Shown here piece after piece: positions 33-16,500 of a stretch of DNA of 64,000 bases (within the stretch, counting starts at the first letter, position 1; every line of letters starts with the position of its first letter). A program made the translations under genes and the position numbers. The stretch spans positions 1 to 64,000 of the forward strand of contig CAJWUI010000007.1 in the NCBI GenBank assembly GCA_913047695.1, read 5' to 3'. The stretch is from an uncultured Bacteroidota bacterium. Its GTDB lineage: Bacteria; Bacteroidota; Bacteroidia; Flavobacteriales; Flavobacteriaceae. The notes under the pieces were generated by a model. It ran no database searches and was not told the origin of the DNA. It worked only from the letters and a program-made list of their open reading frames with translations.

Positions 33-216
33 TTTAGTGGTTGATGCAATTTTCAACACGATATCTATGATATACAACTAAAATAGTAATATTAAAATTA
101 TCGGCGCTCCACCTTTATAAGGTTTAGTAGTAAATAGGCAGTTTAGATATTTTAATCATCAAAGCTTAACTATTTTAATTTTCATTAATTTCATTAAACG
201 GAAAATTAAAAAACCG

Positions 217-1314
217 ATGCATTCAATACCCCAAAACCGCGTTCGTTCAATAGACATACTTCGGGGTTTTGATATGTTGATGATAGTTTTGGCAGATCAA
301 TTTTTTTCTAAGTTAAATGAGGGTTTAGCCCTAGATATCACCGCATTTCTGTCACTTCAGTTTACACACCCCGAATGGTTTGGATTTAGATTCTATGACA
401 TTATTATGCCCTTGTTTCTTTTTATTGTTGGGTTGGTAATTCCCTTTTCAATGTCAAAATATCTAGAAATCTCTACCAACAAAAAATCTCTTTTCCTAAA
501 ACTAATCAGGAGATTTTTTATCCTTTTTTTGTTAGGATGGATTGTTCAAGGTAACCTTTTGGATTTCGACCTTTCAAAGTTTAAAATATTTAGCAATACA
601 CTTCAGGCCATCGCAGTTGGATATGTTTTTACCACAGTATCATATGTCTATCTCAAACCTACCCAAAGGTATTTTCTTTTTGCGGTTTGTTTGTTAGCAT
701 ATTCCCTTTTATTAACCTTACCAATTATTCCAGGGATTGGTAGGAGTACCCTAAATCCCAATACCAACTTTGCTCTTTACGTAGATAATTTAATTTTCGG
801 TTCTTTTGATGACGGGACGCAATACACTTGGTTTTTATCCAGTATAACTTTTACTGCAACCACCATGTCTGGACTTTTTGCAGGTGAAGTCATTAAAAAC
901 CAAAAAGATAAGTTCAAAGTAGTCAGAATGCTTTTTTCCTTTGGCGCTGTAGCCCTATCAATTGGTCTTTTAGGAAATACTTTTCATCCTATAGTTAAAA
1001 AAATATGGTCTTCTACTTTTGTATTGTTTTCTTCTGGAATTTGCTATTTCCTTATGGCTTTTTTTTATTGGCTCATTGATATAAAAAAGAAATATAAATG
1101 GGCATTTTTCTTAAAAGTTATAGGGATGAACGCAATTACAGCTTATGTAATTTCTCACGTTTTACCTTTTCCCAAAATTGCAGGTTTTTTATTTTACGGT
1201 TTAGCACCTTACACCACAAAATTTTATGATTTGATCACCGTAGTTGGAGGATTTGCTTTACTTTATCTATTACTTTGGTATATGTACAAAAACAAGACTT
1301 TTATTAAGGTTTAA
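217..1314 (+). CDS. NagX/HGSNAT-like membrane acyltransferase (DUF5009 type)
   Basis: A polytopic inner-membrane protein of 365 aa with about ten hydrophobic segments. The N-terminus has the RSIDILRGFDM signature (residues 10-20) of the COG4299 group, related to heparan-alpha-glucosaminide N-acetyltransferase and bacterial NagX. The second family motif follows at about 51-72: HPEW, then FYDIIMPLFLFIVG. Family members are thought to move acyl groups across the membrane onto amino sugars; the substrate here is unknown. The start is the only ATG in front of the signature. It stands alone, with 183 bp before the next operon and a divergent spacer behind it. The family call is solid; the precise function is inference. 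Confidence 0.8.
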   Translation: MHSIPQNRVRSIDILRGFDMLMIVLADQFFSKLNEGLALDITAFLSLQFTHPEWFGFRFYDIIMPLFLFIVGLVIPFSMSKYLEISTNKKSLFLKLIRRFFILFLLGWIVQGNLLDFDLSKFKIFSNTLQAIAVGYVFTTVSYVYLKPTQRYFLFAVCLLAYSLLLTLPIIPGIGRSTLNPNTNFALYVDNLIFGSFDDGTQYTWFLSSITFTATTMSGLFAGEVIKNQKDKFKVVRMLFSFGAVALSIGLLGNTFHPIVKKIWSSTFVLFSSGICYFLMAFFYWLIDIKKKYKWAFFLKVIGMNAITAYVISHVLPFPKIAGFLFYGLAPYTTKFYDLITVVGGFALLYLLLWYMYKNKTFIKV

Positions 1315-1460
1315 ACAATAATATAGTTGATTATTCTTACTATTTATCTCCAATGTTCTCAAGAAAATTCCAAATATTCTTACAAAAGCAGAAATGGAAA
1401 TTTCCAAAAATAATTGAATTATCCATTAACTTGGCCTCATAATTCATTTTAAGTACTAAA

Positions 1461-1470
1461 TTGTATATTG
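1461..1470 (+). promoter_or_regulatory. TTGTATATTG promoter-like element
   Basis: TTGTATATTG lies 27 nt before the ATG at 1498. The same 10-11 nt string occurs before the genes at 5730, 6411 and 8304, with a one-base variant at 13555. It resembles the Bacteroidota -7 box (TAnnTTTG) without matching it exactly. A promoter role is inferred from repetition and position. Confidence 0.45.
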
Positions 1471-1497
1471 AAAATTATAAACTCAAAATCATTAAAT

Positions 1498-1992
1498 ATG
1501 AAAAAGTCTTTAACATTACTCGCTTTCGCGATATTTACTTTTGTTTCAGGACAAAATGATAAAAAAACCTTTCAAGATTTAAAGCAACTAGAGGGTAAAT
1601 GGGTAGGAACTTTAAATCTTTCAAATGGAGAATCTAAGCCAATGAATTTACATTATAGTATCAGATCAAATGGTAGCGCACTTGTGGAGGAAAGCAATGA
1701 GGGAGGAACAGAAATGATGACTATAATAAATCTTCATAACGACAAAATTCTATCAACTCATTATTGTGGGGCAAGAAATAGACCAGTTGCAGAATTAAAG
1801 TCAAATAAGAATGGAATAATAAAATTTGTTACTAACCACAAACGAAGTGGATTAGATGTTAGCAAAGAGTCTTTTGTTGGTTCTTGGGAATTTGTTATAA
1901 CCCCCAATGAAAAAGATAAATTCACTTACAAATACACTTCAATTGGTCCTTATTCTTTTGAAGCTGTAGCAAAAATGAATCGAGTGAAATGA
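1498..1992 (+). CDS. secreted protein, lipocalin/DUF1579-like, unknown function
   Basis: A 164-aa exported protein. I take the ATG at 1498, not the track's TTG at 1468, because 1498 gives a clean signal peptide (MKKSLTLLAFAIFTFVSGQ) and leaves the TTGTATATTG element upstream. The mature part opens with a LEGKWVGTLNL-type strand, followed by alternating beta-strands. This is the general look of small beta-barrel proteins annotated DUF1579 or lipocalin-like, but I cannot assign a family with certainty. It is first in an apparent operon: its TGA overlaps the ATG of the serine hydrolase (ATGA). Function is unknown; a periplasmic binding or accessory role is only a guess. Confidence 0.7.
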   Translation: MKKSLTLLAFAIFTFVSGQNDKKTFQDLKQLEGKWVGTLNLSNGESKPMNLHYSIRSNGSALVEESNEGGTEMMTIINLHNDKILSTHYCGARNRPVAELKSNKNGIIKFVTNHKRSGLDVSKESFVGSWEFVITPNEKDKFTYKYTSIGPYSFEAVAKMNRVK

Positions 1993-3185
1993 AACACCTT
2001 ATTTGTCTCCTATTTTTTATATGCGCATTAAGTTTTTCTCAGTTTGATGATGTCAAACTTTTACAAAAAAAATTTATAAGTGAAGAGATAACAGGAAGTA
2101 ATGTTGCACTTGTTTATAAAGAAGGGAAGGTGGTATATATCAATATTGAAAACTCAGGTAAATTGGGAGACAAAAACATATCAAATAAGAGCTACAAACC
2201 CTATAAGGAAACTATATTTCCAATTTGGTCAATGTCAAAACCAATTACAACAGTAGCCACAATGATTTTATTAGAGAGGGGTTTGATTAAACTTTCAGAC
2301 AATGTTTCAAAATATATTCCATCAATGAGTAAAATGAATTGTGAGACTAATACTGGAATACAACCCTGTAAAAAACAAATTAAAATTTTAGATCTTTTAA
2401 CCCACAGATCAGGGTTTGGCTATTATGGAAATCCAGGATATGGATATGGTTTTACAAGTACCATTAAATATGACAATCTTGAAAGTTTTAGCAATGATTT
2501 ATCGAAAGCTGTTTTGAAATTTGAACCTGGGTCAAAATACTTTTATGGAATAAATCAAGCAGTACTTGGGCGAATTATCGAAGTCGTTTCAAAAAAGAGT
2601 TTTTTTGAATTTTTAAAATATGAGTTGTTTGATCCTCTTGATATGCACGAAACGAAATTTTATTTAACAGAGGAGGAAAAAAGTAGGTTCCAGCCACTTT
2701 TTATAAATACAGGGTTACTTAAAGGGTACACATATGAACTAAACGAACTATCGTATGATGAAAATAATCAAGCTTATTTTGGTGGAGAGGGATTAGTATC
2801 GACACTGGGAGACTATTCAAATTTTTGCAAAATGCTTTTAAATGGAGGTACATACAACGGAAAAAGAATCATAGATCAGAATAGCATCAATTTAATGACT
2901 AGAAAGTATTCACAATCATATCCAGATGAAGAATTTGCTGATACCAGAAAATTAGGTTTTTATTACGGGTTTTCACTTTTTGTTTTAGAAAATCCAGAAA
3001 TAGATGGTACTAATTCATCGAAAGGAATTTATGGATGGTCTGGTTACCACAATACTCATTTTTGGATTGACCCTGAAAAAAAATTATTTGCAATATTTCT
3101 TTCAAGGTCAAGGCAAAGTATATCCAATGTCGACATACAAAAGGAATTTAGGAGAGCTGTTTATATATCCATCAGAAATAAATAA
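1989..3185 (+). CDS. secreted serine hydrolase, beta-lactamase (class C) family
   Basis: An exported 398-aa member of the beta-lactamase/D-Ala-D-Ala carboxypeptidase/esterase superfamily. The signal peptide is MKHLICLLFFICALSFSQ. The nucleophile motif SxxK is SMSK at 81-84. The tyrosine motif is probably YGIN near residue 188, and the third motif region is GWSGYHNTHFW, followed by IDPEKKL. Members cleave peptides, esters or beta-lactams, and substrate cannot be told from sequence. Being class C-like does not imply antibiotic resistance. Translation is coupled to the upstream secreted protein (4-bp overlap), and the metallophosphoesterase starts 23 bp after its stop. Confidence 0.85.
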   Translation: MKHLICLLFFICALSFSQFDDVKLLQKKFISEEITGSNVALVYKEGKVVYINIENSGKLGDKNISNKSYKPYKETIFPIWSMSKPITTVATMILLERGLIKLSDNVSKYIPSMSKMNCETNTGIQPCKKQIKILDLLTHRSGFGYYGNPGYGYGFTSTIKYDNLESFSNDLSKAVLKFEPGSKYFYGINQAVLGRIIEVVSKKSFFEFLKYELFDPLDMHETKFYLTEEEKSRFQPLFINTGLLKGYTYELNELSYDENNQAYFGGEGLVSTLGDYSNFCKMLLNGGTYNGKRIIDQNSINLMTRKYSQSYPDEEFADTRKLGFYYGFSLFVLENPEIDGTNSSKGIYGWSGYHNTHFWIDPEKKLFAIFLSRSRQSISNVDIQKEFRRAVYISIRNK

Positions 3186-3208
3186 TCACTATACTTTTTA
3201 ATATTTAG

Positions 3209-4225
3209 GTGAAGCGTAGGACATTTATGAAAGGAACAACAAGTGCAATTGCAGGAATTGGGTTTCCAGCTATTCACTCTTTTCAAAGTCAATTTAAAAT
3301 AGCACAAAACCCTTTTGAAACATATGTAACTATGGATCAGGAAAAAGTTTGTTTTTATAGTGATGTGATAAGAGAAAAAATTAAAATTATACACATAGCT
3401 GACACTCATCTATACATGGATGACAGTAGGGGTTCGCCATATCAAAATTACAGTAGCCGCATGGCAAATGCTTACAATCAAACAATTCATTTCAAAACAG
3501 GAAAAAAAACAAATCCCGAAAAAGCTTTTGAGGAGGCAATAACATATGCTAAAGAATCAAAGGCTGATATTATTGCACTATTAGGGGATATTTTTAGTTT
3601 TCCATCTGAATTAGCAATTGAATGGGTTTTATTAAAACTGAAGGCTATTGATATTCCATATATTTATATAGCTGGTAACCATGATTGGCATTATGAAGGT
3701 ATGGACGGTGAGCTAGTCTCTCTTCGTGATAAATGGATAAAAAAACGTTTACTCCCCTTATATCAGCGAAAGAATCCTTTAATGGCAGCATATGACATTA
3801 AGGGAATCAGGTTTTTGGCCATTGATAATTCAACTTATGAAATTAATAATGACCAATTAAATTTTTTTAAGGAACAAGTTGCAACAGGTTTACCTCTTGT
3901 TTTATTGATCCACATTCCAATGTATGTTCCTGGGAAAAGCATTTCATTTGGTTGTGGAAATCCATTTTGGGGTGCAAAAACTGATCGAAATTTTAAATTA
4001 GAAAGACGCCCTAAATGGCCTGAAAATGGCCATACAAAAACAACTTTCAAATTTTATAGAGAGGTCTTTCAATCATCGAACCTTATTGGAATATTTGCTG
4101 GTCACATTCACCGCAATTCGATTGAAATTATTAAAGGAAAACCTCAGATAGTTTCAGATGATAATGCCAGTGGAGGGTATCTTGACATCGATTTTATTCC
4201 AATGGAGGACAAGTTTAAAATCTAA
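3209..4225 (+). CDS. Tat-exported metallophosphoesterase (calcineurin-like)
   Basis: A 338-aa calcineurin-like phosphoesterase. The two-metal site motifs appear in order: IADTH (63-67), LLGDIF (about 131), GNHDWH (about 156), LLIHIPM (about 231) and GHIHRN (about 297). The start is a GTG, supported because it places KRRTFMKG at the extreme N-terminus, a twin-arginine signal followed by a hydrophobic stretch. A later ATG (MKGTTSA) would remove both arginines. The enzyme probably acts on phosphomonoesters or diesters in the periplasm; its substrate is unknown. It is the third gene of the 1498-4225 operon and converges on the DUF2911 gene. Confidence 0.85.
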   Translation: MKRRTFMKGTTSAIAGIGFPAIHSFQSQFKIAQNPFETYVTMDQEKVCFYSDVIREKIKIIHIADTHLYMDDSRGSPYQNYSSRMANAYNQTIHFKTGKKTNPEKAFEEAITYAKESKADIIALLGDIFSFPSELAIEWVLLKLKAIDIPYIYIAGNHDWHYEGMDGELVSLRDKWIKKRLLPLYQRKNPLMAAYDIKGIRFLAIDNSTYEINNDQLNFFKEQVATGLPLVLLIHIPMYVPGKSISFGCGNPFWGAKTDRNFKLERRPKWPENGHTKTTFKFYREVFQSSNLIGIFAGHIHRNSIEIIKGKPQIVSDDNASGGYLDIDFIPMEDKFKI

Positions 4226-4246
4226 ACTAAACAATGAAATAAATTT

Positions 4247-4828
4247 TTAGTTTGGTACAAAAAAGGGAAAACTTATTGTTATTTTTTCCCAGCTTAATGA
4301 AATAGTCCCCTGTTGATTAGCAATTTTTTCAATTCTGTATGTCAGATTCTCCATTACTTCTTCTGAAATTTTTGGTTTTACATCGAATCTAAAAACATCA
4401 TCAGCCTGATTGTATTCATCTTTACTGTGTTGTTTCCAATTTTTATTAAATATTAATGTCCAAAATTCTTTATTTGGTATAGTGAAAAAACCATACTTTC
4501 CTGCTTTCAGTAAATTATCATTTATTAATAAGTCTTTGTTGGTAGAAATCCAAGTTGCATTGTGAGCACCTGATTGCCAAATATCTCCGTAAGCCAATAG
4601 GCCTCCGTAAATAATCCTTCCCCTAACAGATGGTGACGAATAATCGATATGAATATGGGCGCCATCAATCATTGTCATTGCATATTTACTTGGGCTTAAT
4701 TTTTCTTTTCTATTCGAAACCACTTCTTCGCCTTTTCGACTTTGATGCTTATGATCTGAATGATTTACTGAGTTATTTTTACAGCAAAGATGTGTAACCA
4801 CAAGAAAGCATAAAATTATTTTTTTCAT
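4247..4828 (-). CDS. DUF2911 lipoprotein
   Basis: A 193-aa lipoprotein with a short signal and lipobox ending in Cys 15-16 (VTHLCCKNN). The body matches the DUF2911 pattern well known in Bacteroidota: DYSSPSVRGRIIYGGL, then GDIWQSGAHNATWI, then a KAGKYGFFTIP turn and a W-x-LIFNKNW strand. The family is a beta-sandwich of unknown function, probably facing the periplasm. A His-rich linker (NHSDHKHQSRK) follows the lipidation site. It is transcribed alone, convergent with the phosphoesterase. The family call is confident; the role is unknown. Confidence 0.82.
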   Translation of the reverse strand: MKKIILCFLVVTHLCCKNNSVNHSDHKHQSRKGEEVVSNRKEKLSPSKYAMTMIDGAHIHIDYSSPSVRGRIIYGGLLAYGDIWQSGAHNATWISTNKDLLINDNLLKAGKYGFFTIPNKEFWTLIFNKNWKQHSKDEYNQADDVFRFDVKPKISEEVMENLTYRIEKIANQQGTISLSWEKITISFPFFVPN

Positions 4829-4902
4829 TAAATATTTTTAATCTCCGAGTTTTTTTATCTAACTCTAATAAAACATTAAATAATTCAATTTCATAAGTTT
4901 TA

Positions 4903-5043
4903 CTATTTAGTAATACTTGAAACGACAAGTTTTATTAATGAAAAATAAATATACAAACCTATTGTTAATGAAATTATAAGTGCTAGAGTAATACAAAATC
5001 TCTGTACTTTATTGTTTTTTTTAACTAGTTTTCCCAAATTCAT
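4903..5043 (-). CDS. possible small single-span membrane protein (46 aa)
   Basis: This frame is below the ORF track's size limit. It starts ATG at 5043 and ends TAG at 4903. It encodes a basic N-terminus (MNLGKLVKKNNK) and one strongly hydrophobic helix (FCITLALIISLTIGLYIYF), then a short polar tail. That layout suits a one-pass inner-membrane protein with the N-terminus inside. It fills the otherwise empty gap between the DUF2911 and RHH-like genes on the same strand. Hydrophobic frames also arise by chance in AT-rich DNA, so this is tentative. Confidence 0.35.
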   Translation of the reverse strand: MNLGKLVKKNNKVQRFCITLALIISLTIGLYIYFSLIKLVVSSITK

Positions 5044-5110
5044 ACTGATGTTCTCTTTTGTCTAGTTATTTTTTGTGTGAAATTACAACTTCCATGGGTA
5101 ATATAATTAT

Positions 5111-5359
5111 TTACTTTTTCAATTCCTGATGTTCTAATATTTCCGGAACATTTCCCTCTAGATCATCTATCAAAATATGTGGAGTATATTTTCTAATCCA
5201 TTGATAAATCACGCCTCTTATAAATTCAGTTTGGGAAGGTTGCTTACCAAATTTTTCTTTTGCCTCACTGGAATTTATAGCATGTTTAATGTAGTCAGTA
5301 AATTGCTTCGAAGCATTAAATTTGACTTGATTGTTGTATTGAATTTTAGTTTTTGGCAT
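5111..5359 (-). CDS. small ribbon-helix-helix-like protein
   Basis: An 82-aa cytoplasmic protein without signal or membrane segment. The predicted layout is a strand with alternating residues (QVKFNAS), a helix (KQFTDYIKHAI), a charged turn, then a second helix (TEFIRGVIYQWIRKY). This is compatible with a ribbon-helix-helix (CopG/Arc-type) DNA-binding fold, with an acidic C-terminal tail (DDLEGNVPEILEHQELKK). No toxin gene is adjacent, so an antitoxin role is not supported. I do not recognise a named family; a small regulator is the best guess. Confidence 0.55.
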   Translation of the reverse strand: MPKTKIQYNNQVKFNASKQFTDYIKHAINSSEAKEKFGKQPSQTEFIRGVIYQWIRKYTPHILIDDLEGNVPEILEHQELKK

Positions 5360-5697
5360 TTAAGGTTTGATTTGGAACAATAATAATTCGATATTATTTA
5401 TTTAATTATCTCGATCGGTTTATTTTTTTGTAAAAATATCAAATTATTTTTTAAAGGTACCTATTAAAATACCATTAAATATTCAAAATAAAAAAAATAC
5501 AAAAAAATTTTTTCTTTTTTACTATCAAAATTGATTTTTTAGACGTATTCCCTTTTTAAAATTTCTTAATTAGGCTTATTTTATTCAAAATATGCATAAT
5601 TTATCTTAATTTTTTGTGTTTTTTTAAAATAAACGCCCCTTTTTGTTTGATTTTTTATATTCTTATGGAAATACTTTTAAGTTAAATCGAATACTTC
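5360..5697. other. AT-rich intergenic spacer
   Basis: About 340 bases without a credible gene. The stretch is very AT-rich with several A or T runs and one short palindrome (CGATCG near 5412). The track's TTG start at 5643 in this spacer gives a frame without a signal peptide until the ATG at 5730, so I read it as leader. Apart from the promoter-like element at 5698-5708, I see no hairpin or repeat of note. Confidence 0.5.
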
Positions 5698-5708
5698 TTT
5701 GTATATTG
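5698..5708 (+). promoter_or_regulatory. TTTGTATATTG promoter-like element
   Basis: An exact copy of the 11-mer found before 6411 and 8304, placed 21 nt before the ATG of the SnoaL-like lipoprotein. Promoter function is inferred. Confidence 0.45.
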
Positions 5709-5729
5709 ATTAAGCTAAAATTTATTTTT

Positions 5730-6242
5730 ATGAAAACAAACATTTTATTTATTGCAACAATTATGTCTATGCTTTTTCTAGCTTGTAACCCTCAACAAAA
5801 TAGTACACCTCAAAAAGCAGAAAATCAAATAGGTATAATTAAAGGGGATGATTTTCGCTCCAATTCGATGATAACATTTATGGATGCTTATGTTAATAAC
5901 AATCTAAGCAGCGTTGCTGATTTATTTACTCCTGATGCGAAAATAATGATAAATGATGCTGATTTGACCTTTTCTCAAATGACAGAAGGATTTTCAGCAG
6001 GTCATCAATATTTTGAAAATATTCGCCACGAAAATAGAGATGCTTTTACAATGCATTACGAAGATGGTAAACCGGCAGGAAATATTTTTACACATTGCTG
6101 GTATACTTGGAAAGCAACAAGTAAAAAAACAGGTGAAGAACTTTCAATAAGAGGCTATGCTTGGATGAAATGGAAAGATGATAAAGTTGAAACAGTTTAT
6201 AATGCATTTGATCCTACCATGTATAACGCTTCTATGAATTGA
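5730..6242 (+). CDS. NTF2/SnoaL-like lipoprotein
   Basis: A 170-aa lipoprotein starting at ATG 5730, which gives the signal MKTNILFIATIMSMLFLAC with the lipidated Cys at 19. The track's TTG start at 5643 would bury that signal. The mature part fits the NTF2/SnoaL cone fold: an opening helix (MITFMDAYVNNNLSSVADLFTPDAKI), then strands with conserved aromatics (HCWYTWKA, GYAWMKWKDDKV). Such domains bind small molecules or act as isomerases or dehydratases, and no catalytic residues can be assigned here. It shares the promoter-like element with the secreted paralogs downstream, which suggests common regulation. Confidence 0.72.
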   Translation: MKTNILFIATIMSMLFLACNPQQNSTPQKAENQIGIIKGDDFRSNSMITFMDAYVNNNLSSVADLFTPDAKIMINDADLTFSQMTEGFSAGHQYFENIRHENRDAFTMHYEDGKPAGNIFTHCWYTWKATSKKTGEELSIRGYAWMKWKDDKVETVYNAFDPTMYNASMN

Positions 6243-6371
6243 AATAAGTGAATTTAATAAATTCAAATCTGTCATTTTTTGCGATCATTTTAATGGTTGT
6301 AAGTACTAGTTCAAACTGAACATGAGTTTTATTTATAGGGAATAATTATGCAAAAATAATTTATTGAGTAA

Positions 6372-6382
6372 TTTGTATATTG
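6372..6382 (+). promoter_or_regulatory. TTTGTATATTG promoter-like element
   Basis: An exact 11-mer 28 nt before the ATG at 6411. The downstream leader (an AT-rich stretch with CATAAA) resembles the leader of the paralog at 8304, suggesting promoter and gene were duplicated together. Confidence 0.45.
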
Positions 6383-6410
6383 TGATTTATTAATCATAAA
6401 CTAAAGTAAA

Positions 6411-7178
6411 ATGAAGAAAAAATATTTTTTATTACTCATTCTTTTATTTATTTACACAAATAATTTAATTGCTCAAAGAACTTTTGTTCTTCATGGTGTA
6501 AATGTTCCTTACCAAAATCAAGAAAATTTTGAAAGTCAAGAAATTGAATACAACTCTAAGTTAGCTCAGGACTACGTTGATAGTGGTAAGATGAGAGGAT
6601 GGGCATTATTAAAAAGAGTTCAAGGAATTGGAGATGCAGAGGATTATAAATTCAACTATTTTTGGGTTCATGCTTTTGACAACATTGAACAAATGGTTGC
6701 CCATAAAGAGAGTCCTTTTTGGGAAAAATTTGAAGATAAATTCGGTTTCAAACCAAATAAGCTCAAAGGTAATGGAATCACAAAAAGTGGTATGTATCAT
6801 TTTATGACCCAAGATGAATTCAATAATGGGCAGGGGAAGTATATAATTTTAAACGATGGAAAGGTCAATGATATACAAGCTGCTATTGAACTTGGAAAAA
6901 AGACAGGAAACATTTTCAAGAAAAACTCGAAAAAGACCGGCATGACAGGATGGGGGGTAGCAACAATCATAGCACCTCAAGACAAACACAATGATAGTAA
7001 TATTTTCTATTGGGATATATATGATTCAATGGAAGGTGTGATGAAACATATGGCTAACCAAGGTGCAGTTTCGTATATACCGAATGATATGGTTGAGAAG
7101 TTTTTAAGTAATCTCCCAGATGGTTTCTCACACAGAAACATAACCGAAATTATTATTGGTACTTCTCCCAAACAATAA
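6411..7178 (+). CDS. secreted paralog A, possible dimeric alpha/beta-barrel protein
   Basis: A 255-aa exported protein (signal MKKKYFLLLILLFIYTNNLIAQ). It is a paralog of the product at 8304: both have a similar length, a K-(M/L)-(R/K)-GWA-(L/M)-L-(K/Q)-R segment near residue 60, and a second similar half containing GWGVAT/MWATAR-like strands. Each half reads as strand-helix-strand with aromatic residues, like ABM/NIPSNAP ferredoxin-like domains, but I cannot name the family. The two halves suggest an internal duplication. It ends at a strong terminator shared with the convergent gene. Function is unknown. Confidence 0.68.
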   Translation: MKKKYFLLLILLFIYTNNLIAQRTFVLHGVNVPYQNQENFESQEIEYNSKLAQDYVDSGKMRGWALLKRVQGIGDAEDYKFNYFWVHAFDNIEQMVAHKESPFWEKFEDKFGFKPNKLKGNGITKSGMYHFMTQDEFNNGQGKYIILNDGKVNDIQAAIELGKKTGNIFKKNSKKTGMTGWGVATIIAPQDKHNDSNIFYWDIYDSMEGVMKHMANQGAVSYIPNDMVEKFLSNLPDGFSHRNITEIIIGTSPKQ

Positions 7179-7197
7179 ATCTTTATAAAATTTTGCT

Positions 7198-7227
7198 AAA
7201 GAACCCTCCCGGACAGGGGGGTTCTTT
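7198..7227 (+). terminator. bidirectional Rho-independent terminator
   Basis: A 12-bp stem (AAAGAACCCTCC / GGGGGGTTCTTT, one G-T pair) with a 6-nt loop. A and T runs flank both sides, so it can end both the plus-strand gene before it and the minus-strand isomerase-like gene after it. Confidence 0.85.
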
Positions 7228-7239
7228 ATTATCTAATAT

Positions 7240-8178
7240 TTAAATACCAAATTTAGAAAGTGAGGCTCTCACTCTTTTAAGCTTTGCTTTAACCTCCATT
7301 TTGTTAAGTTCTTTATTAAAAGGCTCAACACTTACTGCTCCATTATACCCTTTATTTCTAATTATGTTTAAAAAATTTTCCAAGTCAATTATTCCTGTAT
7401 CACCTGGCAACTCTCTCTCAAGATCCATCTGAGTAGCAATAGTTCTACCTAATACTCCATCGTTTAATTGTACAGAAATAATATCTTCAGCTTTTAAAAA
7501 ATCAAGATCTTCATTTTTATCTTCAGCGCAATAAGTATGGTAGCTATCAAGCAAATAACCAACATTGTTTTTCTCAATGGACTTTATAAGCTCTTTTAAT
7601 CCATTTATGCTATGTAAAAAAGGATATTTATCTCTTGCCATAAGTGTCTTTGGACCAACATATTCTAATCCTAATTTTAGACCTGAATCTTCTAGAACAG
7701 TCGCGACTTTATTTAATCGAGTTCTGTGCTGTTCAAAATTTCTCACATAAGTCAACGTTTTGTGAGTAGGCATGATCCAAGTCACTAAACTTGAAACATT
7801 TAATGAAACAATCGAATTTATATTTTCTACCAGAAAATCATATCCTTCTTTAAACTTCGACTCTGTTGTTCTAAATTCAATAGGTAGGCCTCCAGAGTCA
7901 AAAACAATTTCATTTTCTTTCATTTTTTCTAGATAAGCCATTTTATCACTTTCTTTAAATTGTATAAGTTCTCTCAAAGGTGGACTTATGGCTGAAAACT
8001 TGAACTTAATTGCATAATCTAGTAATTCTTTGGCGGTACATCTGATACCTATAGCTCCGGGACTCAATGATGCTTTTAAGCTTTTTTTAGAATCGATAAA
8101 CTCAAAATAATTAATAAAATGCGGGCTTATTGCGGCGGCTGAAAAAGATTTAATAAAGTTTCTCCTTTTTAACATCAT
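7240..8178 (-). CDS. Tat-exported sugar phosphate isomerase/epimerase-like TIM barrel
   Basis: A 312-aa protein of the xylose isomerase/AP-endonuclease-2 TIM-barrel superfamily. The N-terminus is twin-arginine-like (LKRRNFIKSFSAAA), implying export of a folded protein. Barrel motifs include LKLGLEYVGPKT (the metal-binding Glu strand), VGYLLDSYHTYCAED, ISVQLNDG, and a final SVEPFNKEL with the C-terminal Glu. These Glu/Asp/His residues form the usual divalent-metal site. Members isomerise sugars or inositols; the substrate here is unknown. It sits between the two secreted paralogs in opposite orientation. Start 8178 or the next ATG (8175) are equivalent. Confidence 0.8.
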   Translation of the reverse strand: MMLKRRNFIKSFSAAAISPHFINYFEFIDSKKSLKASLSPGAIGIRCTAKELLDYAIKFKFSAISPPLRELIQFKESDKMAYLEKMKENEIVFDSGGLPIEFRTTESKFKEGYDFLVENINSIVSLNVSSLVTWIMPTHKTLTYVRNFEQHRTRLNKVATVLEDSGLKLGLEYVGPKTLMARDKYPFLHSINGLKELIKSIEKNNVGYLLDSYHTYCAEDKNEDLDFLKAEDIISVQLNDGVLGRTIATQMDLERELPGDTGIIDLENFLNIIRNKGYNGAVSVEPFNKELNKMEVKAKLKRVRASLSKFGI

Positions 8179-8263
8179 ATCATAAATATATGTAAAAGTT
8201 GCTTTCAGTTGAAATAGTTATTTAAATCATATGAACTATTGTAAAAATATTGCACAGAACTTA

Positions 8264-8274
8264 TTTGTATATTG
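8264..8274 (+). promoter_or_regulatory. TTTGTATATTG promoter-like element
   Basis: An exact 11-mer 29 nt before the ATG at 8304, within the short divergent region shared with the isomerase-like gene. Confidence 0.45.
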
Positions 8275-8303
8275 TATCATATTAACCATAAATCACAATT
8301 TAA

Positions 8304-9101
8304 ATGAAAAATTTTTTTACAATCATTTTCTTATCATTCATGACCTTTTCTTTTTCTCAAGATTATTTTACTCATGATTATAGATACATACCTGCGGATA
8401 AGCTTGAACATCATATTAAAATTGAAAAACACTTTTGGAGTAAAGTAGCTCAATTACTTGTCAAAGAAGGTAAGCTTAAGGGATGGGCAATGCTTCAAAG
8501 AGAAGGAGGTTCATCAAATGAACCGAATATTTATTTTTATATTGGAATTGGAGATAAAAATAATCTAGATAATTTCTATGATAATTATGCTAAAGCTAGA
8601 AACTCTGTTTTAAATTCAATTGGGGAAGATGCCGCAGAGCTTGTTAAAATCACTTTAAATGTTGAACCAACAAATATTTTTAATACTATAATGCAGAGAA
8701 CAAATTCAGTATCGACAAAGAAAAATTACGAGTTGAATTATATCAAAATCAACTATGCTAAAGTAAATGGGAATATTGGCCAATTTTCTAACATGCAAAA
8801 AAATATGTGGGGGAGCTTTATAAAAAAAGAGATGGATAAAGGTAATGGAAGTCAAGTAATGTGGGCCACTGCAAGGAAGGTATCTCCAAATGGGAATGGT
8901 TATAATTGGAATTTTATGACTATTGATGGATATGAAACTTTATCTGACGTGTTAGCACCCTCGTGGAATTCTAACACAAAATTTCCTCAAGGATTAGATA
9001 AAATTAATTCAATGATGGAAGGTGGAACTTTCTACAAACAAGTTATTTGGAAAGTTTTAATGTCTGTGGACGGCGAGGGAAACTTTAGAATTCGTAACTA
9101 A
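8304..9101 (+). CDS. secreted paralog B, possible dimeric alpha/beta-barrel protein
   Basis: A 265-aa exported protein with signal MKNFFTIIFLSFMTFSFSQ. The mature part repeats the plan of the protein at 6411: an EGKLKGWAMLQREGG segment near residue 60, a polar helix with DNFYDNYAKARNSV, then a second half with the MWATARKVSPNG strand and YNWNFMTIDGY. Direct identity between the two is modest, so the copies are old. It may act as a secreted small-molecule-binding or oxygenase-like protein, but no active site can be assigned. A terminator follows directly after its stop. Confidence 0.68.
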   Translation: MKNFFTIIFLSFMTFSFSQDYFTHDYRYIPADKLEHHIKIEKHFWSKVAQLLVKEGKLKGWAMLQREGGSSNEPNIYFYIGIGDKNNLDNFYDNYAKARNSVLNSIGEDAAELVKITLNVEPTNIFNTIMQRTNSVSTKKNYELNYIKINYAKVNGNIGQFSNMQKNMWGSFIKKEMDKGNGSQVMWATARKVSPNGNGYNWNFMTIDGYETLSDVLAPSWNSNTKFPQGLDKINSMMEGGTFYKQVIWKVLMSVDGEGNFRIRN

Positions 9102-9107
9102 ATTAAT

Positions 9108-9132
9108 AACCCTCCACCAGGAGGGTTTTTTA
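9108..9132 (+). terminator. Rho-independent terminator
   Basis: An AACCCTCC / GGAGGGTT stem with an ACCA loop and a run of T follows the stop of the secreted paralog by a few bases. Confidence 0.85.
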
Positions 9133-9177
9133 TAAAAGTTCGTATTAAGTTAAAATATTATTAGTAATTAAATCAAA

Positions 9178-11355
9178 TTAATTTAAGGAGTAGGCTACGT
9201 AAGAATCTCCAGATTTTGTTCCCATTTTTCCACCTCCACATGCAATAACAATATATTGTTTTCCTTCTAATTCATAAGTCATTGGAGTTGCATAGCCGCC
9301 GGCAGGTAATTTACTTCTCCACAACTCTTCTCCTGTGATTTTATCAAAAGCCCTAAAATATTCATCGTTAGTAGCCCCAATAAAAATTAGTCCACCTGCA
9401 GTAAGAACCGGACCACCATAGTTTTCTGTTCCTGTTTTTGAAAAACCAAGCTTTGTTAATTCATCGTACTCACCAAGTGGAACTTGCCAGACAATTTCAC
9501 CTTTATTTAAATCTATCGCATTTAGTGTTCCCCAGGGGGGTTTAATTGCAGGATATCCATTCTCATCCATAAAACGCCCAAAATAGTTAACTGAATAGGG
9601 TGAAAAATTAGGATCAATTTCTTGTAATGATGTTACTTCAACTTTTATATTGTTGTCTTCTAGAAGGTAAGCGGTTAGTAGATCAATTTGAGTTTTTGAA
9701 ATTTGAGGCATGGGCATCATGCTCCCTTTACCTTTGGAAATTGTAGTTGCTAAATTCAAAGCATTATATCGGTTTTTTAGATTATTTAAACTAGGGATAT
9801 TAGACATTCCATTTAAATCAGCACCATGACATCTTGAGCACTGCTGATTGTAAATAACTTTGCCGTAATCTTTAATCTTATCTCCATTTTCTGAAGATGA
9901 AAAATCTACTTTTTTTGCAATTGATACCCATGGCATTTCGTTTGAGTTTACGTAGAGCCAATTACTATTAGGGTCATATGCTGCACCGCCCCACTCAGCA
10001 CCACCATCTAAACCAGGAAATGTTACTGACCTAATTTTTTCGCTGTGTGGAATAAATTGTCCTTCTGAGTTTAAAGTTTCCCATACCTGTTTAACTGTCT
10101 TATCTAGTATTTTGTCTTTTTGAGTTGGAGTCCAAGCAAGCATAGCTTTTGCATTTGGGAACATGTCGTTAATCTGGTCTTTGGAAAATTCTTGTCTTGC
10201 AAAAGGAGGAATATGTGTTGGTAAAGGTTGGGTCGGCCATGATTTTTCTCCATCAAGTTTTGCTAATTTAACTGGTATTTCTTCTATTGGATATATTGGC
10301 TCCCCTGTTAATCGATCAAAAACAAACAAGTGTCCTGACTTTGTTACCTGTGTTACGGCTTTTATTTTACTTCCATTTCGATTTATTTCAACCAAATTCG
10401 GTGGGGCTGGCAGATCCCTGTCCCACAGATCATGGTGAATGAATTGAAAATGCCATACTCTTTCTCCATTTTTTGCATTTAGTGCGATCAGAGAATTTGC
10501 AAATAAATTTTCTCCTGATCTATTTCCTCCCCAGAAATCATATGATGCTGATCCTGTAGGGATGTAAGCAATACCTGTCGACTCGTCAAGAGTCATTCCA
10601 GCCCATGAATTTGCACCACCCATATGTTTCCAAGCATCTTTCGGCCATGTCTCATAGCCGTATTCTCCAGGATGTGGAATTGTATTAAACCTCCATACTA
10701 ATTCACCAGTATTAAGGTCATAAGCACGAATGTGCCCTGGAGATGCTCCCGGACCCTCATGAACTCTTGAACCTTGAATTAAAATATTGTCATAAACCAC
10801 TCCTGGTGTGTTGGCTATAACAATCATTTCATTGTGAGGGCGGCCTAAGTTTTTTCTAAGATCTACTTTTCCATTTTCACCAAAAGTTTTTTCAGATTTT
10901 CCTGTCAAAGCGTCTACTGCGTATATGTAGCTTCCTGAGGTGTAAACTATCCTTCCATCTTGCCCATCATCCCAATAAATTAATCCTCTATTGACACCCC
11001 ACCAGCCTGGACCAGCATCCTTGCCATGATCAAATTCCCATATTTTTTTTCCAGTTTTTGCATGGATTGCAAAAAGGCTAGTTAAAGGATTTGTACCATA
11101 TAGTATCGTATCAATAACAATGGGACTACATTGTATTTGAGTTGTATTTTTGGAATTTAGAATCCCTCCAGATTTATATTCCCAAATTTTCTTTAAGCTT
11201 TTTACATTTTTTGTATTAACCTGATTTAAACTTGAATAATGACTTCTTGATTTGTCACCTAAATATTCATTCCAGCTTTTAAAATCGTTTTTAACCTCAA
11301 CGGTGTTGCAGTTCATTAATACTAGCAGAATAGGTAGAAAAATTAACTTTCTCAT
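9178..11355 (-). CDS. PQQ-dependent dehydrogenase with internal cytochrome c domain
   Basis: A 725-aa quinoprotein, probably a lipoprotein (signal ending LVLMNC, Cys 16). Repeated W-motif blades of the PQQ beta-propeller are visible (IHAKTGKKIWEF, YDLNTGELVWRF, LNAKNGERVWHF, FDKITGEELWRS). Family members oxidise sugars or alcohols in the periplasm. A c-type heme site CSRCHG lies at about 504-509, with SMMPMP as the likely Met ligand about 50 residues on. This domain sits inside the propeller: blade sequence resumes after it (LNAIDLNKGEIVWQV). The heme would pass electrons from PQQ onward. The substrate is not determinable, and no pqq biosynthesis genes are in the window. Confidence 0.88.
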   Translation of the reverse strand: MRKLIFLPILLVLMNCNTVEVKNDFKSWNEYLGDKSRSHYSSLNQVNTKNVKSLKKIWEYKSGGILNSKNTTQIQCSPIVIDTILYGTNPLTSLFAIHAKTGKKIWEFDHGKDAGPGWWGVNRGLIYWDDGQDGRIVYTSGSYIYAVDALTGKSEKTFGENGKVDLRKNLGRPHNEMIVIANTPGVVYDNILIQGSRVHEGPGASPGHIRAYDLNTGELVWRFNTIPHPGEYGYETWPKDAWKHMGGANSWAGMTLDESTGIAYIPTGSASYDFWGGNRSGENLFANSLIALNAKNGERVWHFQFIHHDLWDRDLPAPPNLVEINRNGSKIKAVTQVTKSGHLFVFDRLTGEPIYPIEEIPVKLAKLDGEKSWPTQPLPTHIPPFARQEFSKDQINDMFPNAKAMLAWTPTQKDKILDKTVKQVWETLNSEGQFIPHSEKIRSVTFPGLDGGAEWGGAAYDPNSNWLYVNSNEMPWVSIAKKVDFSSSENGDKIKDYGKVIYNQQCSRCHGADLNGMSNIPSLNNLKNRYNALNLATTISKGKGSMMPMPQISKTQIDLLTAYLLEDNNIKVEVTSLQEIDPNFSPYSVNYFGRFMDENGYPAIKPPWGTLNAIDLNKGEIVWQVPLGEYDELTKLGFSKTGTENYGGPVLTAGGLIFIGATNDEYFRAFDKITGEELWRSKLPAGGYATPMTYELEGKQYIVIACGGGKMGTKSGDSYVAYSLN

Positions 11356-11408
11356 AACTGTAAATTAATTAATTGAAAAGTAAAATCATAATAATGAAGC
11401 TGATTTAT

Positions 11409-12341
11409 CTAAAATGATCTTTCACCATTTATATCATATCGGGATAAAAAATTCCATACCAATTCTGAGGTGTTTTGCCCTTGGAAAGTAGTCATAAACC
11501 AGACGTGATCTCCACCAATATATTTGTAGTGTTCAACAGAAACCGAGTTATTTCCCTTATCATAAATATAATGCTCGATGGTGATATCTCCACTATTATC
11601 AAAATTTACTATGGGCTCTGGATTTGTTTTATTAAAATTAATCCAGTAGTCTATTGTATTTTGGACTGAATTATAAAAATTATTTCCATTGTAAGGTAAA
11701 TCGAAATCATTTGTTCCGTGTAGATGAATCACTGGCATTGGGTGTGAGGTAGGTCCCATGCAGTCTAACATAGAACCTGATACAGATGCTACTGCAGCAA
11801 TAATTTCACTTTTGTGATTGGCAAGCCCATAAGCCATCATTCCTCCATTAGAATAGCCTACAGCATAAACTCTTTCTAAATCGATATTATAATTAGATGA
11901 AACTTCCTCCACAAGAGTTTCTATAAATCCGAAATCATCAACATCACTCTTATTGTCTTCTCCACTAGGGCATGCATTCCAGTGAGTACTTCCGTCTAGA
12001 TCAAGGCCTTGAGGATAGATTAAAATAAAAGTTTCAGCCTCTGCTAAACGACGCATGTCTGATTCATTCATATATTGATAGGCGTCACCACTAAATCCAT
12101 GAAAATTTAAAACAACCGGAACTGAAAAAGAACCGTCATATGAATCAGGTATATACAAAACATACTCTCTATTTACACCCTGATGAATAATTGTTTGAAA
12201 GTCCGAGGATAAATCATCCGGTTTTGAATAGTTTTTTGTTTCGGTATTAACACAACTATTTATTAAAAAAACTGAAATAACTAAAAAAAATATTTTTTTT
12301 CTTATTGCCAGAAAAACTTTTAGGATCAAATGCATCATCAA
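11409..12341 (-). CDS. PHB-depolymerase/feruloyl-esterase-like lipoprotein hydrolase
   Basis: A 310-aa alpha/beta hydrolase of the esterase-PHB (LpqC) family. The signal ends in a lipobox, LINSC (Cys 30). The fold motifs are in order: VVLNFHGFSGDA (oxyanion region), FILIYPQGLD, WNACPSGEDN, and the nucleophile elbow GYSNGG with Ser about 164. PVIHLHGTNDFDLPYNG carries the acid Asp, and the catalytic His lies near GGDHVW. These enzymes cleave hydroxyalkanoate or feruloyl esters outside the cytoplasm, and the exact ester is unknown. Several Met codons at the N-terminus make the start uncertain by a few residues. It lies 53 bp upstream of the PQQ dehydrogenase on the same strand. Confidence 0.85.
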   Translation of the reverse strand: MMMHLILKVFLAIRKKIFFLVISVFLINSCVNTETKNYSKPDDLSSDFQTIIHQGVNREYVLYIPDSYDGSFSVPVVLNFHGFSGDAYQYMNESDMRRLAEAETFILIYPQGLDLDGSTHWNACPSGEDNKSDVDDFGFIETLVEEVSSNYNIDLERVYAVGYSNGGMMAYGLANHKSEIIAAVASVSGSMLDCMGPTSHPMPVIHLHGTNDFDLPYNGNNFYNSVQNTIDYWINFNKTNPEPIVNFDNSGDITIEHYIYDKGNNSVSVEHYKYIGGDHVWFMTTFQGQNTSELVWNFLSRYDINGERSF

Positions 12342-12379
12342 TTTATCTGAGTGAATTTTACTGGAAAATTAAAAATAAT

Positions 12380-12387
12380 TATATTTG
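12380..12387 (+). promoter_or_regulatory. -7 box TATATTTG
   Basis: TATATTTG is a perfect match to the Bacteroidota -7 consensus TAnnTTTG. Transcription would start near 12394 and run through the hairpin at 12455 towards tRNA-Arg. Confidence 0.4.
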
Positions 12388-12393
12388 AATTCA

Positions 12394-12480
12394 TCAAAGC
12401 AGCCTGTTAAAAATATTTATCGATGTAGCCGCTACGCTACCATTCTAACCAAAGCCCCTTCCAAAAAGGGGTTTGTTCTT
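12394..12480 (+). ncRNA. possible short RNA or tRNA leader ending at a hairpin
   Basis: Between the TATATTTG box and the terminator-like hairpin lies about 85 nt containing a second hairpin, GTAGC-cgctac-GCTAC (12425-12440), GC-rich compared with the surroundings. No known RNA family is recognised. It may be a small RNA, or the leader of the tRNA-Arg transcript. Confidence 0.25.
12455..12480 (+). terminator. terminator-like hairpin before tRNA-Arg
   Basis: A CCCCTT / AAGGGG stem with a 5-nt loop (extended by weak A-T pairs) is followed by TTTGTTCTTTT. No plus-strand gene ends just before it, so what it terminates is unclear. Confidence 0.5.
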
Positions 12481-12482
12481 TT

Positions 12483-12554
12483 GCCCTCCTAGTTCAACGG
12501 ATAGAACAAGAGTTTCCTAAACTTTAGATCCAAGTTCGATTCTTGGGGAGGGTA
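12483..12554 (+). tRNA. tRNA-Arg (CCT anticodon)
   Basis: A full cloverleaf can be drawn: acceptor GCCCTCC/GGAGGGT (first pair G-U), D-stem GTTC/GAAC, anticodon stem AGAGT/ACTTT with loop TTCCTAA (anticodon CCT, reads AGG), and T-stem CCAAG/CTTGG with loop TTCGATT. The discriminator base is A, and the CCA end is not encoded. It lies 100 nt before the esterase start. Confidence 0.93.
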
Positions 12555-12654
12555 CAAAATCCTCCGATTTAGTTTGTGGTTTTTCTTTTATATTTGATTA
12601 AAACAAATAACAATGAGAAAACTTTTAATTGGATGTGATGTAATTTTTAAAAAG

Positions 12655-13500
12655 ATGAGAACACCCTACATAGTTCTTCTTTTAATTCCTTTCTTCTCAT
12701 TTTCGCAAAAAACAATTTCTGTAAATTATAAAAAGTGGGATCTTAAATCATTTCCGGAGTCTAAGATAAATATTGGCGGCTCCGAGGGTTATTATTATGA
12801 TAATGTATCTGAGCCTCAAATGGATTTATATCTGCCAAAGGGAAAGGCTGTTACTGATAAAGCCATGATAATTTGTCCAGGCGGAGGACTTTATTTCTTA
12901 TCCTATGTAAAAGAGGGTATAGAGGTAGCTAAAAAGTTAGCTTCAAACGGAATTACAGCAATTGTGTTAAAATATAGAACATACCCGAGAGAAGGCTCTG
13001 TTTTTGAATGGCATAAAACCTTTTGCTGTGATAATAAAATAGCAATAGATAGTGCTAAAACAATATTACCCTACTCATCAAAAGACGCTTTAAGTGCAAT
13101 TGAAATGATAAGAAATAAGGCTAAAAAATATAACATTGACCCAAATAAAATTGGACTTATGGGATTCTCAGCAGGAGGGGCTGTGACAATGGAGGCTACA
13201 TATAAATCAACTCCCAAAAATCAGCCCAACTTTATTGCCCCAATTTATCCATGGATGGATATAGTAGACAAACAAAATGTTCCGCAAAATAAACCACCAG
13301 CTTTTATCTCCTGTGCAAATGATGACCCATTAAAGCTAGCTGCACCAAGCGTACAAATCTATAAAGATTGGATCTCAGCCAATGCGAAGGCAGAGCTTCA
13401 CATGTTTAGTGAGGGCGGACATGGATATGGTATGAATGATTTATCTATACCAGTAGGTAAATGGTCAGACTTACTGGTTGATTGGATATTGAGTTTGTGA
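12655..13500 (+). CDS. secreted alpha/beta hydrolase (acetyl-esterase/BD-FAE-like)
   Basis: A 281-aa exported hydrolase. I choose ATG 12655 over 12613 because it gives a compact signal peptide (MRTPYIVLLLIPFFSFSQ). The HGG-like oxyanion segment is CPGGGLYFLS, the nucleophile elbow is GFSAGG (Ser about 172), the acid lies in ISCANDDPL, and the histidine in SEGGHGYGM. This order is typical of acetyl-xylan-esterase and feruloyl-esterase-like proteins of polysaccharide-degrading Bacteroidota. No glycan locus (susC/susD) surrounds it, so the substrate stays open. It starts shortly after tRNA-Arg and may be read from the same transcript. Confidence 0.82.
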   Translation: MRTPYIVLLLIPFFSFSQKTISVNYKKWDLKSFPESKINIGGSEGYYYDNVSEPQMDLYLPKGKAVTDKAMIICPGGGLYFLSYVKEGIEVAKKLASNGITAIVLKYRTYPREGSVFEWHKTFCCDNKIAIDSAKTILPYSSKDALSAIEMIRNKAKKYNIDPNKIGLMGFSAGGAVTMEATYKSTPKNQPNFIAPIYPWMDIVDKQNVPQNKPPAFISCANDDPLKLAAPSVQIYKDWISANAKAELHMFSEGGHGYGMNDLSIPVGKWSDLLVDWILSL

Positions 13501-13554
13501 AAATAATTAACAAACCAGTAGTTTTTTTAGTTTTTTTATTCATTTTTCTAATCA

Positions 13555-13565
13555 TTTGTATATTT
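13555..13565 (+). promoter_or_regulatory. TTTGTATATTT promoter-like element
   Basis: A one-base variant of the recurrent TTTGTATATTG element. It ends one base before a possible ATG (13567) and 20 nt before an in-frame ATC (13586). The latter matches the spacing to start codons seen for the other copies. Confidence 0.4.
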
Positions 13566-13585
13566 AATGACTAAATTTTGTAGCC

Positions 13586-16500
13586 ATCAAACAAGCACTT
13601 AGCCTTTTAGTATTTTTACTTTTTCAGATTTCATTTTCCCAAGGGATTGTTCAGAATGGTAATACTATAGAGTGTGATGGTACTGCTGTCGGTGATAGTG
13701 CTTCAATAGGAGGTAAAACAATCTATGTAGTAGATAGAGATGCACTTATCTCAATTGTAGAAAATGGTGATTTCACTTTCACTCCCTCTGGATCTGCTTC
13801 GTCGACTACAGTTACTCCAACCGATTTAAGTTGTGTTTGTACCTCCAATATAACTGATATGAGTTTTATATTTAAAAGAGACGGAGTTTATGGGAAGTCA
13901 AACTTTAATACAGACATTAACAATTGGGATGTCAGTAATGTAACTAGTATGCAATCAATGTTTGAAGAGGCTAGTAACTTTGACAATCCACTCAATTACT
14001 GGGACGTTAGACTTGTTGAGAACATGCAAGCAATGTTCAAAAATGCAGCATTATTTAATAGAAGTTTAAATGATTGGGATGTATCAAATGTAAAAAACTT
14101 TGCCGCAATGTTTCAATCAGCATCTGTGTTTAATAAATCACTTGATAACTGGGTTTTATCACCACAGCTTACGAATCTAAACTATATGTTTTGGGAGGCT
14201 ACAAGATTTAATCAACCTTTAGATAACTGGGTTACAACTAACATAAAATCACTTCAAGGCACGTTTAGAAAAGCAAGAGATTTTAATCAGGATTTAAGCA
14301 CTTGGGACGTAAGTGAAGTCACCCGTATGGATAAACTTTTTTACGGTGCTGCTTCGTTTAATGGTGATATAGATAATTGGCAAGTGCAGAAAGTAATACG
14401 ATTGTCTGAAACTTTTAGAGATGCAATTAGTTTTAATAGGAATATTTCTGGGTGGCAAACATTAAAGCTACAGTTTATGAATTGGACATTTGCAAATGCT
14501 GAAAGTTTCAATGTAGACATAAATAGTTGGGATGTTGAGGAAGTTGTAAATATGAATTATCTATTCAGAGATACTGACATATTTGACCAACCATTAAATC
14601 TGTGGAAAACATATAAGTTAAAATCGACAGAAGGAACATTTTATAAAGCAATAAAATTCAATAGACCTTTAGATGATTGGGATACAGATGAGGTTACAAA
14701 TATGAAAAATATGTTTTTTGAAGCAGTTGAATTCAACAATGGTCAAAGTGGTGGGGTTTCTAACACATTAAGCTTTAATATGTCTTCGGTCAAAAACACA
14801 CAAAGCATGTTTTGGAAAGCATCTAAATTTAACGCGCATCTTTCAGGTTGGGATTTAGGTGAAGTTACTGAAATGGCGTCAATGTTTCGTGATTCAAATT
14901 GGAATAATGGAGCGAGTGCTGGGGTCTCCACAACATTATCTTGGAATGTTGAAAAAGTTAAAAATATGAGTAATATATTCCTTAATAATGGTGCGTTTAA
15001 TGCTAATATTTCTGCTTGGAACCCTTTAAGTGTTGAAGGCTTAAGCTCAGCTTTCGCAAATGCATCAGCTTTTAATAATGGGTTCCCTCCCGGATCTGCA
15101 GGGACAGCAACTATCTCCAACACATTAGATTGGAATATGCCCCGCTTATATAGTGAGGATACTCGGGCTGCCCGAGGTTTGGGATTAGGGAGTACTTTTT
15201 ATAAAGCCACTGCATTTAATTCGTATGTAAATAATTGGAACGTTTCTTCTATTCATAACATAACCAACATATTTTATGATGCTACTTCTTTTAATCAACC
15301 TTTAGATAATTGGAATGTTGGGAATATAGAGTTTATGGAAAATGCATTTAGAGGTGCCACATCCTTTAATCAGCCCATAGGTAATTGGGATGTTACTTCA
15401 GTAGAAAAATTTAACAATATGTTTCTGGGAGCATCAACATTTGACCAGGATATATCATGTTGGTGTGTTCCTAATAACCCTGAAAGAAACAACTTTAGCA
15501 ACGCCTCTCCTATAGATGCTAAACCAAACTATATACCTCGATGGAATCTGCCCTGTTCTCCCATTTTAACTATGGATGATTCTTTTTCCCTTGCCGGAGA
15601 TGATACTTTGATTGGCCCAGGCGAGAGCATAACATTCACAGCTAGTTTTGACAGGGACATCGCAAGTACGGTATCATACAGCTTGAATGGAAGTTCAATT
15701 TCTTCAATGACTGCTGTAAACTCAACAACCTTCACAGTCTCCATAGCTGCAAATGATTTAGCTGATAATACTTATTTGTTTACAATAGAGACTACCGATT
15801 ATTGTGGAGCTAGTTATAATCCTGCTGATGCTACTTTAAATGGAAGTGAAACAGCTACTGATACCATTGAATTTACTGTCGATAAAACACCTCCAAATGT
15901 TACTCTAACGCATAATCATCCAGACAACATCCTCTCAGGTAGTGATACTGTGGAAATTACCGCAACATTTTCTGAAGGAGTTGTATCTCCTACTTTAAGT
16001 CTTGACGGGTTGTTTGCAAATGCCGCAATGACCGGTTCCACATCCTCTGTTTGGACCTATAATATTGATATTACCACATTAACAGTACCCCCTTCAGGCG
16101 ATGATTACTTTGTAACAATAAATGCCAGTGATCCAGCTGGTAACAACTATACTTCATCTACAGGAATTCAAGATGGTAATGAAACCTCTGTAGATAGTAT
16201 CACTTTTACCATTGATAATACACCACCGACAGTAGTTTTAACAGATAGTGATCTTGATGATATTGTTTATCCAGCAGACTCAATAACAGTTACAGCAACA
16301 TTTTCTGAAGCTATGACAAGCGCACCACAAATTAGTTTTTCAGGTGGCCCACAAGATATAAACATGTCCGCTACAAGCTCCCCATCAGTTTGGACTTTTG
16401 TGTTTGACTTTCCATCATACTCTCTTCCAAGTGGAATTTATACCCTCACAGTAAGTGGCACTGATATTTCAGGAAACCCGTATTCAGGGAGCGAAGATGT

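Follow-up and report, generated by a model that had tools for sequence, protein, structure and literature searches.

We have analysed a window of 64,000 nucleotides, the whole stretch of DNA examined, from an uncultured member of the Flavobacteriaceae, in which two genes for predicted exported barrel proteins, termed paralogs A and B, and a gene for a SnoaL-like lipoprotein each follow the same short upstream element. The three open reading frames on which the initial annotation centred, 6411-7178 (+), 7240-8178 (-) between, and 8304-9101 (+), were recovered. The features of the locus are as follows.

5698..5708, + strand: promoter-like element TTTGTATATTG upstream of the SnoaL-like gene, exact match
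5730..6242, + strand: SnoaL/NTF2-like lipoprotein gene, 170 aa, candidate exchangeable unit 1 (PF12680, 27.6 bits)
6372..6382, + strand: promoter-like element TTTGTATATTG of paralog A, exact match
6387..6410, + strand: leader TTATTAATCATAAACTAAAGTAAA of paralog A, abutting the ATG, a partly conserved form of the genus-wide leader TTAAYYATAAATCAATTAAAATG, from sequence
6411..7178, + strand: paralog A, predicted exported tandem dimeric alpha/beta-barrel protein, 255 aa (AlphaFold2 model, PDB match, internal repeat)
7204..7221, + strand: terminator-like hairpin after paralog A
7240..8178, - strand: Tat-type PF01261 isomerase/epimerase-like TIM barrel, 312 aa (PF01261, 1.5e-21)
8264..8274, + strand: promoter-like element TTTGTATATTG of paralog B, exact match
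8280..8303, + strand: leader ATATTAACCATAAATCACAATTTAA of paralog B, abutting the ATG, from sequence
8304..9101, + strand: paralog B, predicted exported tandem dimeric alpha/beta-barrel protein, 265 aa (AlphaFold2 model, PDB match), replaced relative to the sister genome
9108..9127, + strand: terminator-like hairpin after paralog B

A quinoprotein gene with a cytochrome c domain (9178-11355) adjoins the region of the TIM barrel and paralog B. Gene 5730 passes the SnoaL_2 cut-off narrowly (PF12680, 27.6 bits against 27) and matches an NTF2 component profile at E 1.4e-44; its product carries a lipobox-like LFLAC. Signal peptides judged by eye suggest that the barrel and SnoaL-like products are exported. 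No known RNA element was detected in the region with Rfam at gathering scores. An 82-aa open reading frame at 5111-5359, upstream of the slot that holds gene 5730, is 79-95% conserved across four relatives and belongs to no clear family (best Pfam match E 0.07), and the gene at 13859-19513, judged by eye, encodes a 1884-aa secreted surface protein with BspA-like and calcium-binding-like repeats and a gliding-type C-terminus.

The host genome (1.96 Mb in 18 contigs, 89% complete) most likely belongs to the NS5 group of ocean flavobacteria. A single-cell genome of the same genus, SCGC AAA795-G10, has been described as NS5 marine group, which ranks among the most widespread of the uncultured flavobacteria (PMC6013644). 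Among the papers searched, none dealt with the genes of this locus, and an NS5 genome paper (PMC9122927) makes no mention of SnoaL.

Pairwise BLAST relates A and B weakly (E 1e-6, 29% over 79 aa), and partly through the signal peptide, so that the claim of paralogy in the initial annotation needed a better test, for which a profile of their relatives was used. One profile takes both proteins (E ~1e-83 and ~1e-77) and the predicted folds agree, which bears the claim out. The GWA-(L/M)-L-(K/Q)-R segment said to be common to both is present as GWALLKR at residues 63-69 of A and GWAMLQR at residues 60-66 of B, and the two-half layout noted earlier reflects a genuine internal duplication (hhalign probability 97%; E 4e-11 for the single comparison). 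In an alignment of 53 family members the best-kept residues of the mature protein are W64, W181, Gly59, Asn148 and Asp202 (A numbering), the two tryptophans occupying equivalent strand-2 positions in the two halves. Beyond these two tryptophans and one Gly, Asn and Asp, the family alignment conserves no set of residues from which a reaction could be named.

AlphaFold2 models of A (pLDDT 90.5, pTM 0.85) and B (pLDDT 88.5, pTM 0.84) each contain two beta-alpha-beta-beta-alpha-beta repeats, and structure prediction, as had been proposed, gives both paralogs the same fold, that of the dimeric alpha/beta-barrel superfamily (ABM, Dabb, NIPSNAP, EthD, Cld). For both models the best PDB match is 2pgc (E 5.9e-12 for A, 2.2e-9 for B), an uncharacterised marine metagenome protein (jcvi_pep_1096685590403) in which a tandem ferredoxin-like repeat likewise makes up an intramolecular alpha/beta barrel (Foldseek probability 1.00 with each; TM 0.63/0.76 for A and 0.56/0.70 for B). 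However, identity with 2pgc is only 13-15%, and A and B differ from it in being, as predicted, exported. Further structural matches are putative monooxygenases (3f44, 3mcs), anthrone oxidase-like proteins (5f9p, 9kdp; PenE), chlorite dismutase and the coproheme decarboxylase HemQ. The first two groups have a two-repeat barrel like that of A and B at 8-15% identity, a likeness of fold, and a sequence-profile search gave no real match among barrel proteins (best 9kdp, E 1.6). Anthrone oxidase-like monooxygenases are known for oxygenating anthrones with no cofactor, using catalytic residues inside the barrel. Chlorite dismutase and HemQ are likewise two-repeat dimeric barrels (TM ~0.5) but the likeness ends at the fold, the family here having no conserved axial haem-ligand His; a haem enzyme of the chlorite dismutase kind was rejected, the best His column reaching 40% in the family alignment. 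Thus, the search against dimeric alpha/beta-barrel families suggested earlier succeeded at the level of fold, with PDB members, but not with Pfam sequence families, where none of the 53 members has a relevant match at E <=0.1. The barrel family has no Pfam entry and NCBIfam holds no family covering A or B; BMC and other weak Pfam matches were dismissed as being at chance level.

The upstream element said to be shared by gene 5730, A and B is confirmed as an exact 11-mer, TTTGTATATTG, at 5698, 6372 and 8264. In the 1.96 Mb genome it is present in 17 copies, compared with one for the reversed control, and 15 of the 17 stand upstream of barrel or NTF2-like genes. A second stretch, the leader TTAAYYATAAATCAATTAAAATG, lies just before the ATG and is conserved more widely than TTTGTATATTG. 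Allowing up to three mismatches, the leader is found at 20 sites in the genome, 18 of them before these gene types (six barrel genes, three related barrel-like genes of 228-232 aa and nine NTF2-like genes), the remaining two being at an unrelated open reading frame, where the pattern lacks the ATG, and at no gene. The hypergeometric probability of this association is ~4e-31, a rough figure that assumes 40 such genes among 1800. By the element and leader counts, the same signal precedes these genes and in general not others, as would be expected of a regulon, and we infer that TTTGTATATTG is a promoter and that the genes form one regulon; the term promoter-like is used here solely from position and conservation. 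The set of 5730, A and B is not an operon, since every barrel or SnoaL gene is preceded by an element of its own, a terminator-like hairpin follows both A and B, and exchange, described below, involves one or a few genes.

The leader is a feature of the genus. With up to two mismatches it occurs in 35 of 36 same-genus genomes at 2 to 29 copies each, a census in which the choice of loci outside the host's own genome was guided in part by the barrel family. None of 23 genomes belonging to other families of the order contains it, and reversed controls gave none. Elsewhere in the family it was found in 33 of 299 genomes of other genera, mostly at one site, with 2-6 copies in a few small-genome genera. 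Half-length proteins of 129-131 aa, encoded at L082 2073-2465 and in L202, follow the same leader, apparently comprise a single barrel repeat and could be either what the tandem form arose from or what is left after its breakdown. Other lineages of the genus retain the leader but have a different sequence ahead of it (CTATATCTTAGAGGTATTATTAA in L094, for instance), and their regulator may therefore be a different one; one set of versions is seen in L094, L080 and L097 as against L068, L074, L083, L091 and L093. The barrel and SnoaL genes of a given genome often carry the same version, and such lineage versions, common to unrelated genes, suggest a co-evolving regulator or concerted exchange.

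Copies of both gene types are numerous and lie together. The genome contains 11 clear barrel-family members, spread over five contigs, as well as weaker relatives, and 12 SnoaL_2 matches. Eight of the 12 are within 5 kb of a barrel-family gene, a zone amounting to 2.9% of the genome (binomial P ~2e-10), and throughout the genome the same element stands upstream of both types; the part of the earlier idea of a small exported pathway by which barrel and SnoaL/NTF2 genes belong together therefore stands. On contig C8 (L129), positions 1-15,000 form an island of about seven barrel-type and about ten SnoaL/NTF2-like genes for small exported proteins, many of them preceded by the element or leader. 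While gene 5730 exceeds the Pfam cut-off for SnoaL_2 (PF12680), most NTF2-like copies in the genome fall below it, and the copies here, to judge from their signal peptides, are exported; one, L129:7018, also matches the SnoaL polyketide cyclase family PF07366 (6.8e-22). Barrel-family genes, at 31-34% identity, also occur in Aurantivirga-like genomes (L088, L090, L095 and L098, from SCGC AAA160-P02 and others); there they have a fixed neighbourhood, lack the leader and are probably a stable, non-exchanged form.

Comparison with relatives reveals that open reading frames are replaced between conserved elements. The closest relative is L066, a contig of AG-891-I06, the flanks of which are ~93-98% identical to the window on either side, or ~90-98% when scored in steps of 100 bases. 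In the slot after the first element, the window has the SnoaL gene 5730 whereas the sister has a barrel gene; identity ends at 5712, just past the element, and returns near 6358, close to the next one. B is replaced too, with a dS of 2.03 against the L066 copy, compared with 0.13 for the bordering TIM-barrel gene and 0.16 for the quinoprotein gene; A stands at 0.30. Conversely, the unit at 5693-6314 containing gene 5730 is 94% identical to its counterpart in a more distant relative, L070 (dS 0.15), in which A, the TIM-barrel gene and the quinoprotein (PQQ) gene are diverged at dS 1.96, 0.89 and 0.45, respectively. In the C8 island, the block colinear with the sister breaks off at the leader (4190) and picks up again immediately after a stop codon (6015), three genes in this interval facing two different ones in the sister. 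Single units also recur in other genome contexts at 91-99% identity overall, among them L131:1344-1928 with L206 (98.6%) and L130:9650-10582 with L045 (97%), as well as L129:5234-6132 and L129:458-1107 with L096. The precision of the borders at the leader is partly expected, any two units having the leader in common, but the dS contrasts are independent of it.

The gene lying between A and B, 7240, behaves differently. It matches the TIM-barrel family PF01261 (1.5e-21, 77.6 bits), begins with the twin-arginine sequence RRNFIK and is related over most of the barrel to sugar isomerase/epimerase structures, namely 3u0h (E 5.5e-22 by sequence) and IolI, 1i60. It departs from PF01261 isomerases in its Tat signal and in a metal ligand: of the four (Glu, Asp, His, Glu), three are kept whereas His is replaced by Gln (SVQLND). 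The replacement is seen in five of five orthologs (the window, L066, L069, L070 and L071), as is the Tat signal, and the protein may possibly have altered or lost metal chemistry. A reading as a QuiC-like 3-dehydroshikimate dehydratase beside a PQQ dehydrogenase was considered but reached only 36 bits, the cut-off being 1200. No element or leader lies upstream of gene 7240, placing it outside the set of units. It is present in eight of 37 same-genus genomes, the host included, and the majority of genomes carrying the barrel family are without it. In five of the eight it lies beside A; the other three have no clear family member in the fetched flank, that of L225 giving one weak partial barrel-family match. 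Gene 7240 is probably a bystander that belongs with the neighbouring quinoprotein (9178-11355) and not with A and B.

These observations bear on the pathway of the initial annotation, in which the barrels, the SnoaL-like lipoprotein and the Tat isomerase would act on one substrate. Conservation of the neighbourhood, on which that proposal partly turned, holds for the order A, TIM barrel, quinoprotein and esterase, kept in five genomes, and fails for the slot genes, which change between close relatives. The isomerase-like gene could not be retained as a member, having neither element nor leader, standing apart from clear family members in three of eight genomes and being absent from the majority of genomes that have barrel genes. 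On these grounds a pathway including the Tat isomerase was rejected as the main view, and we regard it as very doubtful.

Lineage-specific expansion, in which genes duplicate with their upstream region and upstream likeness reflects recent common origin, would account for the tandem pairs L129 13087/13939 and L130 9704/10576 and for barrel copies with a common signal peptide and leader. It does not readily explain the same element and leader on two unrelated folds, a leader kept while the open reading frames are only 20-35% identical, non-homologous genes in orthologous slots, or single units at 91-99% identity in differing contexts of other genomes; the slot comparison also suggests that leader and open reading frame phylogenies disagree, and expansion by itself is unlikely. 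Rapid replacement and single-gene units are typical of immunity and exclusion loci, and both are seen here, as in a periplasmic repertoire resembling polyimmunity loci against rival toxins, or phage surface blockers. Against such a role, which we consider improbable, PADLOC gave one marginal, unrelated match among 13 members and no known defence system, an unsystematic look recognised no toxin genes, and there was no phage match. A phage or plasmid origin was also rejected, A having no tblastn match; in a viral structure library the best match was a giant-virus ABM-like protein, and PHROGs gave one marginal match. Integron gene cassettes are, like the units here, small single-gene units swapped between short conserved borders, and gain, loss and transfer of whole units would fit a system of site-specific recombination, of the integron kind or another, that acts at the leader. 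Unlike cassettes, however, each unit has its own promoter-like element, and the units are dispersed and in both orientations. The genome holds only three PF00589 recombinase genes, two strong-scoring ones, which we take to be possibly a XerC/XerD pair, and a third at a contig edge; judged by their Pfam matches, these do not point to an integron, and site-specific recombination appears quite improbable.

The evidence is instead consistent with a co-regulated, exchangeable repertoire of exported proteins that bind or convert small molecules, of which the window is one site and which extends throughout the genus; we consider this reading probable. A unit, usually a single gene, would consist of the promoter-like element, a short leader running into the ATG and an open reading frame for an exported protein, closed, where looked at (A and B), by a terminator-like hairpin. 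Most of the encoded proteins would have one of two unrelated folds that form a cavity, the tandem dimeric alpha/beta barrel or the SnoaL/NTF2-like cone. Units may be replaced by homologous recombination, with the common element and leader, plus spacer or terminator, as anchors, and the set of products would be diversified through this exchange. ABM and SnoaL folds form cavities, and the substrates of known members are often hydrophobic ring compounds, handled with no cofactor. A binding or converting role is preferred for this reason: outside the cytoplasm, the products would bind small molecules, probably hydrophobic or aromatic, or convert them with no cofactor, and as no catalytic residue set is common to the family, the ligands are likely to be varied.

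More tentatively, the locus may belong to an undescribed exchange system of abundant open-ocean flavobacteria, in which scattered, autonomous single-gene units coding for two cavity-forming exported folds are swapped between loci and genomes, with one dedicated control element that is also the recombination anchor. It looks like an exchangeable outer-surface toolkit. The barrel family and the SnoaL-like genes together amount to tens of exported proteins per genome in a streamlined 2 Mb lineage, and the common element provides a simple handle for listing the whole set in any genome. If these genes are co-regulated and exchangeable, they would serve as a model, open to direct testing, for the way in which bacteria of the surface ocean diversify their outer chemistry.
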